A stretch of 32,695 bases of DNA, from contig JAFMML010000033.1 of assembly GCA_017859745.1 (NCBI GenBank), forward strand, positions 1-32,695, given 5' to 3'. The DNA is from Planctomycetota bacterium. GTDB lineage: Bacteria; Planctomycetota; Phycisphaerae; Phycisphaerales; SM1A02. Shown piece after piece: positions 24,946 to 29,472 of the stretch (its first letter is position 1; every line of letters begins with the position of its first letter). A program made the position numbers and the translations under genes. Under the pieces are notes generated by a model. It did not search any database and had not been told where the DNA came from. It was given only the letters and a program-made list of their open reading frames with translations.

Positions 24946-26235
24946 ATGACCACCCGCCGCGACGAGACCGTCCTGATCGTGGGCGCCGGCGTCGTCGGCC
25001 TCGCGGCGGCGACCGAACTCGCCGAGCGGGGGATTCCCGTCGTCGTCTGCGATCGCGAACGCCCCGGCAGCGGCGCCTCCTGCGGAAACGCCGGCCTCGC
25101 GAGCTTCGGCCATCCTCCCCTGACCCGCCCTGGCGCCTCCTGGCGTGGTCTGCGATGGATGCTCGATCGACGCAGTCCGCTGCTGATCCGGCCTCGCCTC
25201 GATCCGTCCTTCCTGAGATGGCTGCTCTCGTTCCATCGTCATTGCCGGACCGATCACTTCGAGCGCTCGATGGCGGTGCTGGCCCGGCTGGGGCACGCGA
25301 GCCGTGAGCGCCTCGATCGCCTTCTCGACGTCGCAGGCGGCTGCGATCCGAGGCCCGACGGCTGGCTCGACGTCTACTCGACCGAGCGGGGACGAAAGGC
25401 CGCCGACGAGGAGGCGCTGCTGCACGAGCGATTCGGCTTCCCATCGGAGCCGTGGAGCGGGTCGACGCTCCGCGCGAGGGAACCGGCCTACCGCGACGGC
25501 GTCCGAGGCGCCCGCCACTATCGGCACGCGACGACCCTCGATCCGGGACGCCTCGTCGACGGGCTCTTCAGGAGTCTCGAACACCGCGGCGTGGAGTTTC
25601 GACTTGGGACCGGGGTGACGTCGCTGCGTCGGGACGCCGCAGGACATGTGCACGGGGCGATCCTCGACGACGGGCGAGAGATCGCCGCCGGAACCACCGT
25701 GCTCGCCGCCGGTGCATGGTCGGATCGCCTCGCGGCGCTCGTCGGACTGCGCCTTCCGCTCGAAGGCGCCCGCGGCTACCACGTCGAGTTCGAGTCCGCC
25801 GCGCCGATGCCTTCACGAGGCGCCGTCCTCCACGAGAGCTTCATCGCGATCACCGCCTTCAACGGGCGGCTGCGCCTCGCCGGGACCCTCGAACTCGCGG
25901 GCCTGGATCGGCCCTGGATGCGCGAGCGTCTCGAGCATCTGCCCCATGCGGCCTCGGAATGCCTGCACGGTCTCGACGGGGCGACCCGCGTGGGCGAATG
26001 GGCGGGCTACCGCCCCTGTCTCGCCGACGGGATGCCCGCCATCGGCCGGGTTCCCGGCCGCGAGGGCGTGCTCGTCGCCACCGGCCATGCCATGATGGGG
26101 GTGACGCTCGCACCGGTGACCGGCTTGATGATCGCCGAGCATGTCTGCGCCGGGCGGAGCACCTTCGACGATCCGATGCTCGACCCGGGGCGATTCGGTC
26201 CGACTCGAACCGGCTCGCATCGCGTCGCGAGTTGA
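24946..26235 (+). CDS. DadA-like FAD-dependent amino-acid oxidase/dehydrogenase
   Basis: 429 aa from ATG 24946. TVLIVGAGVVGLAAATELAERGIPVVVCDRE is a complete FAD-binding GxGxxG fold with the acidic end. CGNAGLASFGHPPLTRPG is the second conserved block of D-amino acid dehydrogenases. The middle holds LDPGRLVDGLFRSLEHRGVEF, and the C-terminus has GEWAGYRPCLADGMPAIGRVPGREGVLVATGHAMMGVTLAPVTGLMIAEHV, the usual DAO-family end. It probably oxidises a D-amino acid (or proline/sarcosine-type amine) and feeds electrons to the respiratory chain. Substrate not determined. The gene ends 35 bp before the 163-bp inverted-repeat element. Confidence 0.9.
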   Translation: MTTRRDETVLIVGAGVVGLAAATELAERGIPVVVCDRERPGSGASCGNAGLASFGHPPLTRPGASWRGLRWMLDRRSPLLIRPRLDPSFLRWLLSFHRHCRTDHFERSMAVLARLGHASRERLDRLLDVAGGCDPRPDGWLDVYSTERGRKAADEEALLHERFGFPSEPWSGSTLRAREPAYRDGVRGARHYRHATTLDPGRLVDGLFRSLEHRGVEFRLGTGVTSLRRDAAGHVHGAILDDGREIAAGTTVLAAGAWSDRLAALVGLRLPLEGARGYHVEFESAAPMPSRGAVLHESFIAITAFNGRLRLAGTLELAGLDRPWMRERLEHLPHAASECLHGLDGATRVGEWAGYRPCLADGMPAIGRVPGREGVLVATGHAMMGVTLAPVTGLMIAEHVCAGRSTFDDPMLDPGRFGPTRTGSHRVAS

Positions 26236-26270
26236 TCTCGCCACGACCGGCGGAATCGAGGCATCGGCCC

Positions 26271-26433
26271 AGGTCCTGTTTGACGGATCGGCGTCGACCC
26301 GAGAGGTTCGGAGGGGGCCCTCCCGCGAGGAGGGCGAAGCAGGCGATTCCCCAACGAATCGTCGATGCAGCCCGACGATGCGGGTGGTCGTCTCCGGGCC
26401 TCGAAGTCCCGATCGATCCGTCAAACAGGACCT
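26271..26433. repeat. 163-bp element with perfect 20-bp inverted ends and three internal hairpins
   Basis: AGGTCCTGTTTGACGGATCG (26271-26290) is repeated exactly, inverted, at 26414-26433. Between the arms three hairpins can form: 26317-26335 (7-bp stem, GCCCTCC/GGAGGGC), 26344-26361 (6 bp, CGATTC/GAATCG) and 26374-26392 (5 bp, GACGA/TCGTC). The arms thus enclose a cloverleaf-like fold. CGGCC lies outside both ends (26265-26269 and 26435-26439), a possible 5-bp target duplication if one extra base per side belongs to the element. It has no coding frame. It may be a MITE-like mobile element or a structured RNA. The right arm includes the first two of the three stop-codon bases of the ROK gene. 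Confidence 0.75.
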
Positions 26434-27367
26434 ACGGCCAGAGCCAGGCGGCGCCACGAACGCCGCTCGAGTCGCCGTGGGAGGGCTTGAGGATCGCGGT
26501 GTCGAAGGTGTCGGAGAAGACCCGCTTCGCGAGCGCCTCGGGCAATCGTTCGTAGAGGATTCCGAGGTTCCCCACGCCGCCGCCCAACACGATCGCATCG
26601 GGATCGAGCACGTTGCACACGACCGACAGGCCCCGCGCCAATCGATCGACCAGACGATCGAGCGCTCCCGCCGCGTCGGCGTCGCCCTTGCTCGCGGCGT
26701 CGGAGATCTCCGGCAATCTCCACGTTCGCCCGGTCCGGTCGGCGTGCTCCCGTTCGACCGCGGGCCCGGCGATCCACTGCTCGAGACAGTCGATCGCTCC
26801 GCAGTAGCACCGACGCGACGCCTCTTCGCGTTCCCCGTCGCCGCGGCGCGGCAGCGGCGTATGTCCCCACTCGCCGCCGATGCCGTTCCGACCGCGGAGC
26901 ACTCGTCCATCGACGACCACGCCCCCGCCGACGCCGGTGCCGAGGATCACGCCGAAGACGGTTCCGAATCCCGCGGCGGCGCCGTCGCACGCCTCGGACA
27001 GGGCGAAGCAGTTGGCGTCGTTCTCCGCTCGAATCGACCGCCCGATCGCCCGCTCGAGGTCCTCGATCACCGGACGGCCGTTGAGACAGACGCTGTTGGA
27101 GTTGCGCTGCAGTCCCGTGCGTGGCGAGATCGAACCGGGAAACGCAAGGCCGACCGGGGCCTTGGAATCGAGGCCGCGTCCGACGGTGTCGACCACCTCC
27201 GCCATCGCTCGGATCGTGCCCTCGTAGTCGCCCTGCGGCGTCGGCACCCGGGTCCTCGCTCCGATCTCACCATCGGGCTCGAGGCGAACCGCCTCGATCT
27301 TGGTGCCGCCGAGATCGACGCCGATGCGGGGGCGATCTGAGGTGACGACGGACGCATCGGGGCTCAT
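26432..27367 (-). CDS. ROK-family sugar kinase (fructokinase/glucokinase-like)
   Basis: 311 aa from ATG 27367, with GAGAG upstream. IGVDLGGTKIEAVRLE is the ATP phosphate-1 motif; FPGSISPRTGLQRNSNSVCLNGRPV and AENDANCFALSEA contain the catalytic Asp region; GVILGTGVGGGVVVDG is phosphate-2. The ROK signature GEWGHTPLP is followed by the zinc motif CYCGAIDCLEQWIAGPAVE. The end GDSSGVRGAAWLWP closely matches E. coli Mak (manno(fructo)kinase), so the protein is complete although its stop codon is inside the inverted-repeat end. It phosphorylates a hexose with ATP; fructose is likeliest but not proven. Divergent from the S9 peptidase gene with only 53 bp between. Confidence 0.92.
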   Translation of the reverse strand: MSPDASVVTSDRPRIGVDLGGTKIEAVRLEPDGEIGARTRVPTPQGDYEGTIRAMAEVVDTVGRGLDSKAPVGLAFPGSISPRTGLQRNSNSVCLNGRPVIEDLERAIGRSIRAENDANCFALSEACDGAAAGFGTVFGVILGTGVGGGVVVDGRVLRGRNGIGGEWGHTPLPRRGDGEREEASRRCYCGAIDCLEQWIAGPAVEREHADRTGRTWRLPEISDAASKGDADAAGALDRLVDRLARGLSVVCNVLDPDAIVLGGGVGNLGILYERLPEALAKRVFSDTFDTAILKPSHGDSSGVRGAAWLWP

Positions 27368-27404
27368 GGCGGACTCTCGCTGAGCGGGGACTCGACGAGG
27401 CGGA

Positions 27405-27414
27405 ATGGTACATT
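27405..27414. promoter_or_regulatory. Overlapping divergent -10 elements
   Basis: On plus, TACATT (27409-27414) ends 6 nt before the S9 peptidase ATG. On minus, TACCAT (27410-27405) lies about 38 nt before the ROK ATG. The two hexamers share the bases TA, so RNA polymerase could serve only one promoter at a time. Confidence 0.4.
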
Positions 27415-27420
27415 CCGACG

Positions 27421-29472
27421 ATGCCGACACGACCTTCGCGCGGGCGATCCGCACCGCGGCGCCGCCCGATCGGACCCTCGGACCTGCTCGAACTCGTCGG
27501 GGTCTCGGACCCTCGAATCTCGCCCGACGGCCGACGCATCCTCTTCACCCGAAGTCGCATCGAGGGGTGGCGGGTCGTCCGCAATCTCTGGACGGTGGAC
27601 GTCGACGGCAGGACGGACGCTCGACCGATCACCTCCGGCACCAACGACTCCGCCGGCCGATGGTCGCCAGACGGCACGATGATCGCCTTCATCCGCGGAG
27701 GCGAGCCGAAGGACGGCCGTCCGCAGGTCGCGGTGCTCGACCTTGCAGGCGGCGAAGCCCGCTTGGCGACCGATCTTCCCGAGGGTTCGCTGCGAGACGC
27801 GATCTGGTCTCCCAACGGCGACTCGATCCTGTTCGCGTTTCGCCGACGGGCCGAGGAACGCACCCGTACCGCGCGTGAGGTCCGTGAACGCGAGGGACGC
27901 TCAGATCCGCCGCGCATCGTCGAGGATCCCTGGTACCGCCTCGACGGCGACGGGTACTTCATGGCGGACCGCTTCGTCATCCAACATCTCGATCTCTCGT
28001 CCGGGGCGGTCCGCACGCTCTTCGACCGCGATCGCCTCGGCGAGTTCTCCTTCGACGTCTCGCCCGACGGCCGCACCCTCGCCGTCACCGCGCACACGTC
28101 GTCCACCGCGGTCCTCGATTCGTGGAAGACCGACCTGCTGCTGATCGACGTGGCGTCCGGACGACGGGCCAAGGTCGCCAAGGCGCCGATCGGCCCGAAG
28201 ACCGCCGTCCGCTTCAGTCCCGACGGGCGGATGCTGGCCTTCGCGGGTCGCGAGGATCGCGAGGACGGGCTGTACTCCACGCGGAACCTCGGTCTGTTCG
28301 TCGGCCGAACCGACGGTCGCGGCGGGTTTCGCGATCTGCTCGCGACGACCGACTGGTGCCTGCTCGCGGCCACGCTCTCGGACAGCCGCGAAGCGTCGTT
28401 CGCCCCGAGCGTCGCCTGGAGCAGAGACGGGCGGCGCCTGTTCGCCCGAGTGGGCTGGCAGGGCTCCGGCCGAATCGCCTCGGTGCCGATCGACGGCTCC
28501 ACGCCGCGCTTCGCAAGCCCGGAGGGCGTCGAACTCTCGATGGGCGACCTTTCCGCCGACGGTCGCCGAATGGCCCTCGCCGTCGGCGACATGACCACGC
28601 CCGACGAGATCGCCGTCGGCGACGTCGCAACAACGTCGATCCGCATCTCGACGCTGACCGACTCGAACGCCGGGTTCATCGCCTCGCGACATCTCGCAGC
28701 CCCGATCGAGCATTGGATCGAGACCACCGACGGCACGAAGGTCCAGGTGTGGGAACTGCGCCCGCCCGGCGTGCCGGCCTCGCGCCGAACGCCCGCGATC
28801 CTCGAGGTCCACGGCGGGCCGCACGCCCAGTACGGGCACACCTTCTTCCACGAGTTCCAGTGCCTCGCGGCAGCCGGATACACCGTCTTCTTCTCGAATC
28901 CGCGGGGCAGCAAGGGATACGGCCGCGACTTCTGCGAGGCGATCCGCGGCTCGTGGGGCGGCAAGGACTGGGAGGACGTGCGGGCCACGCTCTCGTTCAT
29001 CCGGGGGCGACGCAACATCGACGCCGGGCGTGTCGGCATCATGGGCGGCAGCTACGGCGGCTACATGACCAACTGGGCGATCGCCCACGATCCGTCGATT
29101 CCCGCGGCGATCACCGACCGCTGCGTCAGCAACATGGTCTCGATGCAGGGCAACAGCGACCACCTCGGCCGCCCCGACCGCTACTGGACCGGGGCGCCGT
29201 GGGATCGGCCCGAGGCGCTGTGGCGGTCGAGCCCCATCGCCCACTTCAAGGGCGTGCGCACGCCGACGCTCGTCATCCACAGCGAAGGCGACCTCCGCTG
29301 CAACGTCGAGCAGTCCGAGCAGGTCCACGCGGCACTCGTCGCCCAGAACGTCCCCACCCGCTTCGTCCGCTACCCCGCCTCGACGAGTCACGGCATGAGC
29401 CGCAGCGGCCCGCCGGACCTGCGGATCCACCGGCTCGGCGAGATCCTCGCGTGGTGGGATCGGTGGCTCTGA
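27421..29472 (+). CDS. S9 family (prolyl oligopeptidase/acylaminoacyl) peptidase
   Basis: 683 aa from ATG 27421. The N-terminal two-thirds is a beta-propeller built of WD40-like/TolB-like units: PRISPDGRRILFTRS, GRWSPDGTMIAFIRGG, AIWSPNGDSILFAFR and FDVSPDGRTLAVTAHTS. The alpha/beta-hydrolase domain follows: LEVHGGPHAQYGHTFFHEFQCLAAAGYTVFFSNPRGSKGYG, then GIMGGSYGGYMTNW. The catalytic triad is Ser544, Asp624 (SEGDLRC) and His657 (STSHGMSR). It cleaves small peptides, probably as a cytoplasmic aminoacyl- or dipeptidyl-releasing enzyme; no signal peptide is clear, as the start is basic. Likely leaderless, with TACATT 6 nt before the ATG. Confidence 0.94.
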   Translation: MPTRPSRGRSAPRRRPIGPSDLLELVGVSDPRISPDGRRILFTRSRIEGWRVVRNLWTVDVDGRTDARPITSGTNDSAGRWSPDGTMIAFIRGGEPKDGRPQVAVLDLAGGEARLATDLPEGSLRDAIWSPNGDSILFAFRRRAEERTRTAREVREREGRSDPPRIVEDPWYRLDGDGYFMADRFVIQHLDLSSGAVRTLFDRDRLGEFSFDVSPDGRTLAVTAHTSSTAVLDSWKTDLLLIDVASGRRAKVAKAPIGPKTAVRFSPDGRMLAFAGREDREDGLYSTRNLGLFVGRTDGRGGFRDLLATTDWCLLAATLSDSREASFAPSVAWSRDGRRLFARVGWQGSGRIASVPIDGSTPRFASPEGVELSMGDLSADGRRMALAVGDMTTPDEIAVGDVATTSIRISTLTDSNAGFIASRHLAAPIEHWIETTDGTKVQVWELRPPGVPASRRTPAILEVHGGPHAQYGHTFFHEFQCLAAAGYTVFFSNPRGSKGYGRDFCEAIRGSWGGKDWEDVRATLSFIRGRRNIDAGRVGIMGGSYGGYMTNWAIAHDPSIPAAITDRCVSNMVSMQGNSDHLGRPDRYWTGAPWDRPEALWRSSPIAHFKGVRTPTLVIHSEGDLRCNVEQSEQVHAALVAQNVPTRFVRYPASTSHGMSRSGPPDLRIHRLGEILAWWDRWL

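Follow-up and report, generated by a model that had tools for sequence, protein, structure and literature searches.

A palindromic element of 161–163 bp that lacks a transposase gene is very probably a MITE moved by an IS5-family transposase, with an interior drawn from a family of core hairpins that is spread over the whole phylum Planctomycetota. It was found in a stretch of 32,695 nucleotides of a Planctomycetota genome, the whole of which is called the window here. The assignment to MITEs of the IS5 type is strongly supported, and so is the pattern by which the wider family is marked, i.e., by a conserved folded core and not by its ends.

The element is a non-autonomous MITE and, according to the proposed mechanism, would be mobilized in trans by a candidate DDE transposase of the IS5 family that resembles those of the IS427 group. 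This enzyme would recognize the terminal repeats, insert the element at the sequence YTAR and thereby duplicate TA; in the window, the site of insertion is the stop codon, TAG, of a gene for a ROK-family protein. Mobilization by such a transposase is suggested by the copies of the element, the IS5-family ends, the empty orthologous site and the YTAR/TA flanks. The interior belongs to a Planctomycetota-wide family of ~160-bp elements that have a 56-nt core hairpin in common and terminal repeats that differ between lineages. Selection probably acts on the plus strand in its folded state, which would most likely be RNA arising from read-through of the neighboring genes.

The Element and Its Surroundings

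The features of the region are listed in Table 1.

Table 1. Coordinates of the element, its parts, and the adjacent genes in the window.
Feature	Position	Strand	Remarks
MITE body	26272–26432	+	Lies between both copies of the target dinucleotide; ends set by alignment of copies and by intact copies
Element as first drawn	26271–26433		163 bp; body and a single flanking base at either end
Left terminal inverted repeat, AGGTCCTGTTTGACGGATCG	26271–26290	+	Complementary to right arm at 20/20 positions
Right terminal inverted repeat	26414–26433	-	Complementary to left arm at 20/20 positions
Conserved core hairpin, AGGAGG-GC-GAAGCA-GGCG..loop..CGTC-GATGCA-GCC-CGAC	26325–26380	+	Model R1, 82.5 bits; pair counts; phylum-wide matches
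ROK-family gene	26432–27454	-	PF00480, E 1e-70; stop codon is the insertion site
FAD-dependent oxidoreductase gene	24949–26235	+	PF01266, E 3.9e-63; start not fixed
Left copy of target dinucleotide	26270–26271	.	CA here, not TA
Right copy of target dinucleotide	26433–26434	.	TA; together with C26432, gives the ROK stop codon TAG (-)

The perfect 20-bp inverted ends reported in the initial annotation were recovered, and these arms are the sole exact inverted 16-mers at most 400 bp apart in the 32.7-kb window. The domain matches bear out that the element sits between convergent genes: the oxidoreductase gene (PF01266) reads toward it on the plus strand and ends at 26235, and the ROK gene (PF00480) reads toward it on the minus strand. 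Also as described earlier, the right arm enters the ROK stop codon, its last base being part of the CTA at 26432–26434.

The region folds far better than expected from its composition. With RNA parameters, the z-score is -9.35 relative to 200 dinucleotide shuffles, and with DNA parameters it is -5.79; in both cases 0/200 shuffles folded equally well. As to the cloverleaf-like interior described earlier, the best fold with DNA parameters is branched, whereas the best fold with RNA parameters is a single long nested hairpin with internal loops and without a cloverleaf. In Rfam 15, no family scored above its gathering score in the window, where the single sub-threshold match lies off the element, and 15 related loci likewise contained no family and one sub-threshold match that is not on an element. 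This agrees with the earlier statement that no known RNA family was recognized. A search for intrinsic terminators, defined as a stem-loop plus a T run, yielded none (0) between 26100 and 26600, and promoter-like sites were not detected in the vicinity either.

Copies in the Source Genome and in Relatives

The source genome (G000; 3.24 Mb in 147 contigs) contains four copies of the element in unrelated flanks, i.e., the one in the window, one each on contigs C85 and C102, and one that is truncated by the end of contig C25. They are 95–98% identical to the window copy. No further copy of the end was detected in this genome at up to three mismatches. A search with the full element in 61 genomes, including the source genome, gave matches in five of them; in the other four (G013, G025, G030, and G038), only the interior matched and the ends were different. 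The two congeners G001 and G002 gave no match in this search.

When the 19 end bases were used in an exact scan, nine stretches were found, eight of them in records of Phycisphaerae, Phycisphaerales, Planctomycetia or Planctomycetota. The ninth, from Clostridia, is regarded as a chance match, because the next 260 bases do not contain a second end. Among the relatives, another MAG carries a full-length copy that is 93% identical (L060), a 31-base fragment is present at a contig end (L055), and genome G065 contains additional copies, one of which is missing most of the interior. At two loci, L057 and L062, the same ends as those of the window element enclose different interiors. Genome G064 contains 37 end matches at up to two mismatches, with many window-like ends; as at L057 and L062, such ends also bound other short elements there with different interiors. 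No match was found in plasmids, nor in viral contigs with a strict core pattern. The search of the source genome and its relatives that had been suggested at the outset thus produced four copies in the source genome itself and the 93% identical copy at L060. The earlier suggestion of a MITE-like element is substantiated by these copies, by the relatives, by an IS that shares the ends and by an orthologous site that lacks the element.

The Insertion Site

In congener G002, the convergent DAO and ROK genes are present without an element between them, and the aligned parts of the two genes are about 100 bp apart, as compared with about 290 bp in the window. In congener G001, the DAO and ROK genes are located on separate contigs, which leaves only the ROK end for comparison; there, too, the element is missing. 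In both congeners, the ROK stop codon reads CTA on the plus strand. The window element was inserted at the TA within the stop codon of the ROK gene.

The ends were sought in 66 core-bearing elements, and both were intact (left TAG, right CTA) in 25 of them. A pyrimidine precedes 24 of these 25 elements and a purine follows 24 of the 25, which leads to YTAR as the target sequence with a 2-bp duplication of TA. This target was derived from the 25 intact elements only, since the ends were misplaced in several others (e.g., L159, L175, L219, and L220). TA is present only on the right side in ten elements, one of which is the window element, and only on the left side in eight. Eight of the ten right-only cases, among them the window element, retain the A adjacent to the element and differ solely in the T. 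A systematic loss of T at the left end was considered and dropped in view of the ten right-only versus eight left-only cases.

The sequence CGGCC is indeed found outside both ends, at 26265–26269 and 26435–26439, as noted earlier, though one base separates each copy from its arm. Its interpretation as a 5-bp target duplication had to be abandoned: other copies of the element lack CGGCC, and the intact copies duplicate TA in YTAR instead. As the element starts with G after the TA (TA|G) and finishes with C before the TA (C|TA), insertion into a TAA or TAG stop codon yields TAG. With TAG restored in this way, such insertions should be nearly harmless.

The Partner Insertion Sequence

The same 19–20 end bases were found near contig ends of another genome, MAG-52 (JAEUIV, G061), where they bound an IS5-family element of which only fragments are available. 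At some contig ends, the end sequence is followed by a leader and an ATG that opens a reading frame, MAKRTRTGRGVDGRP; at others, the mirror end is found, encoding the C-terminus of a transposase. Joining the two halves into one IS is an inference, as no contig spans it. The 45 C-terminal residues from MAG-52 are identical at 35 positions (78%) to those of the complete, 289-aa transposase of locus L142. The latter protein is an IS5-family transposase, which matches NCBIfam model transpos_IS5_3 (E 1.6e-88) and the Pfam domains DUF4096 and DDE_Tnp_1. L142 and L143 represent complete IS copies of about 960–990 bp with CT..AG flanks, and their ends differ from those of the window element at 3–4 of 18 positions. 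In both L142 and MAG-52, the element end and the target together complete the stop codon of the transposase gene. At positions 1280–1330 of L142 and at the right end of L123, the reading frame of the transposase extends into the right IS end, and its TAG stop codon is completed by the target.

In the source genome, no match to DDE_Tnp_1 (PF01609) was found; the mobilizer is therefore absent there, lost or unassembled, and the window element is either an orphan in its own genome or has a partner that was not assembled. For the ends of the core elements of G069, a complete genome, the only further occurrences in that genome were three partial matches, 35–74 bases long, and for two of these no second end was detected within 1.5 kb at up to four mismatches, the match itself aside. 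Among the 301 genomes of the order, 102 contain a DDE_Tnp_1 domain, and its occurrence showed no clear link with that of the core (11/24 genomes with a core of at least 40 bits vs. 91/277 others; p 0.26). At L227 (G072:C1:609300-612300, positions 915–2507), a 158-bp core element abuts a 1437-bp IS with other ends, and one TA is common to both. The source genome has a single match to Y1_Tnp, of the RAYT type (G000:C16:3581-3925), and neither congener has one.

A Conserved Core With Covarying Stems

Inside these elements of about 160 bp with lineage-specific ends lies a core of 56 nt that consists of covarying stems and near-invariant loops. An alignment (A1) and a covariance model (R1) were built from 15 cores, among them that of the window. 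When the 301 genomes of the order were searched with R1, 41 gave a match at E ≤0.001; 24 of these genomes contain matches of at least 40 bits, and the other 17 only matches below 40 bits, and at several of the weakly matching loci (L173, L179–L186) neither a clear core nor clear ends could be made out on visual inspection. Among 392 genomes drawn from the phylum, 24 gave a match at E ≤1e-5, of which 20 are labeled as belonging to the same phylum only (10 families) and four were already part of the order set. The core was present in all of ten loci from the phylum search, most of which fold as nested hairpins; the best fold of L269 is not a nested hairpin, and L268 is truncated where its contig ends.

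On 70 chosen loci, R1 produced 72 matches with 62 distinct sequences. In these 62 sequences, 93.3% of the cells are paired and both sides have changed in 13 of the 16 pairs, with 172 cells changed on both sides as compared with 52.7 in shuffles. The covariation score was 0.477 in an alignment that is fitted to the model and hence favored, vs. 0.157 in shuffles and at most 0.090 in slid controls; in the smaller, unfitted alignment A1, it was 0.187, vs. 0.064 in shuffles and at most 0.038 in slid controls. The covariance analysis over homologues that had been recommended for the element thus came out positive for the stems of the core. Hardly any variation is seen in the GA/GA step and in the two loops, GAAGCA and GATGCA, and the ends and the sequence outside the core have little in common between different lineages. 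The position of the core is well-defined: in 23 of 25 intact elements, it lies 52–55 nt from the left end and 53–54 nt from the right end.

The Folded Strand

Strand preference was evaluated in 43 of the 66 elements, i.e., those with the core 50–56 nt from both ends, with 23 left out and the orientation set by the model. The plus strand is the more stable one as RNA in 41/43 elements and 18/19 genomes. This advantage was retained when the core was omitted (40/43 elements, 18/19 genomes) and when only the outer stems were considered (36/43 elements, 16/19 genomes). Among the isolated mismatches of the outer stems, G-T outnumbers A-C (31 vs. 9 with lineages merged; p 0.0007, an optimistic value given the relatedness of copies and of positions). 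Within the core zone, the bias is reversed in the raw counts (25 G-T vs. 41 A-C), which is ascribed to the conserved non-pairs of the core. One pair of the core is G-U in 29 of the 62 sequences and G-C, A-U or C-G in the rest, with four unpaired; on the opposite strand, the 29 G-U pairs would be A-C. Together, the strand stability and the mismatch bias point to selection on the folded plus strand, either as RNA or as single-stranded DNA.

We have moderate confidence that the conserved core may act as RNA, as judged from these sequence patterns. The initial annotation had offered a structured RNA as the competitor of a mobile element, to be refuted by copies at many loci. The covariation of the core across lineages and the better folding of the plus strand speak for the RNA part of that proposal, and the MITE reading holds as well; the two are not exclusive, and both hold in part.

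Gene Context of the Family

Gene calls were made with a simple caller based on codon usage, which gave no call at one of 57 loci and was wrong at the window: it called the genes divergent, without a stop codon at the element end, whereas they are convergent and the ROK stop codon is located there. Among the 56 elements with gene calls, 23 overlap a stop codon, and the miscalled window would be the 24th. Dedicated targeting of stop codons was rejected as an explanation, since 9 of 24 YTAR sites within 150 bp behind genes overlap them as well (23/56 vs. 9/24; p 0.81); an early signal in this direction (24/49 gene ends vs. 11/131 non-coding YTAR sites) was gone once the 150-bp background was used. 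A strong preference for convergent genes was not upheld either (convergent:divergent 15:7 vs. 5:8 in the background; p 0.16), and copies were found in all gene arrangements. The orientation of the elements relative to the neighboring genes showed no bias (++, 14 same; --, 11 opposite), which makes a fixed role for these genes unlikely.

A Possible Relation to the Transposase Leader

In the leaders of three IS copies, i.e., those at L142, in MAG-52 and at L236, the ribosome-binding site AAGGAG is located in a hairpin loop immediately 5' of the start codon; in L143, the fourth of the IS leaders, the best fold pairs GGAGG instead. The AAGGAG hairpins lie near 427–445 in L142, at 609–626 in L126 (MAG-52) and at 476–493 in L236. 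The stems of these leader hairpins are compensated, as in TCGGC/GCCGA and GTCAGC/GCTGAC. With the filters switched off, R1 placed its outer positions GCAAGGAGG and CCGACGATG on the leaders, with E-values of 0.0028 for both L143 and MAG-52, 0.0033 for L142 and 0.061 for L236. In L143 and MAG-52, these matches lack the apical 38 positions of the core, and the likeness between core and leader amounts to about 18 positions in four IS. At L105, a place ~590 bp outside the IS scored better than the leaders did (E 0.00068), for which reason the kinship between core and leader is considered a lead only. This place, at positions 2594–2643 of L105 (G030), may be a degenerate core ~590 bp from an IS5-type element (18.7 bits).

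One lead, then, is that the core may be derived from the hairpin holding the ribosome-binding site of a transposase leader. In an extension of this idea, which is unlikely, the core would imitate the leader of the transposase mRNA as an RNA; it looks like the leader hairpin lengthened by about 38 nt at its apex. If so, transcripts of dispersed copies could bind a protein or RNA regulator of the leader, and the transposase output of any IS5 lineage present could change. Such a role would account for the persistence of the core in elements whose ends vary with the partner.

Alternative Explanations

The element might also be a plain IS5-derived MITE, the hairpin of which is a by-product of the long inverted repeats and the core of which was kept by common descent and horizontal spread. 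The mobility part is common to this reading and the preferred one, and the probabilities given to the two overlap and do not sum to one. We regard it as unlikely, albeit worth serious consideration. The 95–98% identity of the copies in the source genome and the absence of an orientation bias relative to genes are in line with it. What speaks against it is that the core loops are near-invariant and the stems covary where little sequence is common outside the core, and that the bias in stability toward the plus strand persists even without the core. The folded plus strand could instead be recognized as a hairpin of single-stranded DNA by a Y1/HUH transposase, as in REP/RAYT systems, with the ends being secondary. 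The 5' foot GGAG of the core, followed by a stem with conserved mismatches, would suit such recognition, and Y1_Tnp is encoded by the source genome and by 19 of the 24 genomes searched, and is missing in both element-less congeners. However, terminal repeats and a TA duplication at YTAR fit DDE elements, no match to Y1_Tnp was obtained in G062, G170 and G266, all of which carry the core, and no core match was found on the contig of the Y1_Tnp gene of the source genome. Moreover, published REPs measure 20–40 bp (PMC3733652). A single-stranded DNA element is considered very unlikely.

Equally little probability, or slightly less, is given to a host element, i.e., a 3'-UTR element or terminator that is kept for the benefit of both convergent genes. 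The location between convergent genes in the window and the very stable hairpin would be expected of such an element, but it is missing at the orthologous site in G002 and at the ROK end in G001, no intrinsic terminator-like site was found, and the copies occur in all gene arrangements without a significant excess of convergent over divergent ones. A MITE moved by an IS5-family transposase, with its interior from the core-hairpin family, accounts best for the observations.

Meaning and Relation to Known Systems

MITEs are normally recognized by their ends, which are read by the transposase. A conserved MITE interior becomes a testable question, with a function as RNA, in translation control or in protein binding as candidates. 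In practice, the covariance model finds the family where end-based searches fail, and it accounts, for annotation purposes, for a class of palindromes of about 160 bp near genes in Planctomycetota. Among the open-licence papers listed on Planctomycetes, Rhodopirellula, MITEs and IS5/IS427, titles and abstract openings contained no description of the core family, and the same applies to those on repeats and hairpins in Planctomycetes, structured RNA with transposons, and MITEs with stop codons or convergent genes.

REPs have been reported in Planctomycetes (PMC3733652; PMC2817692). Like REPs with their RAYTs, the elements described here are dispersed intergenic hairpins. They differ in being about 160 bp long with terminal repeats and a TA duplication, and are not tagged hairpins of 20–40 bp; the Y1_Tnp gene of G000 has no core match next to it.

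The likeness to IS5/IS427 elements consists of the IS5_3 transposase of the partner, the short terminal repeats and the 2-bp duplication. In the IS5/IS427 rows compared from Table 2 of PMC3281130, the duplication is 2 bp in all but ISPha1 (4 bp) and the length is 832–865 bp; the 2-bp duplication agrees with these rows, and the placement in the IS427 group is tentative. Unlike such IS, the window element is geneless and its own genome lacks such a transposase, and the complete copies L142 and L143 are longer (about 960–990 bp).

RUP, NEMIS, ERIC, and Nezha are non-coding elements of 70–300 bp with terminal repeats and strong hairpins that are often located beside genes, and each of these families is known by its common ends and sequence. 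The family of the window element resembles them in being small and non-coding and in having terminal repeats and a strong hairpin. All four bacterial MITEs are named in a published account (PMC3733652). In contrast to these families, it is the center that is conserved here, across an entire phylum, while the ends change.
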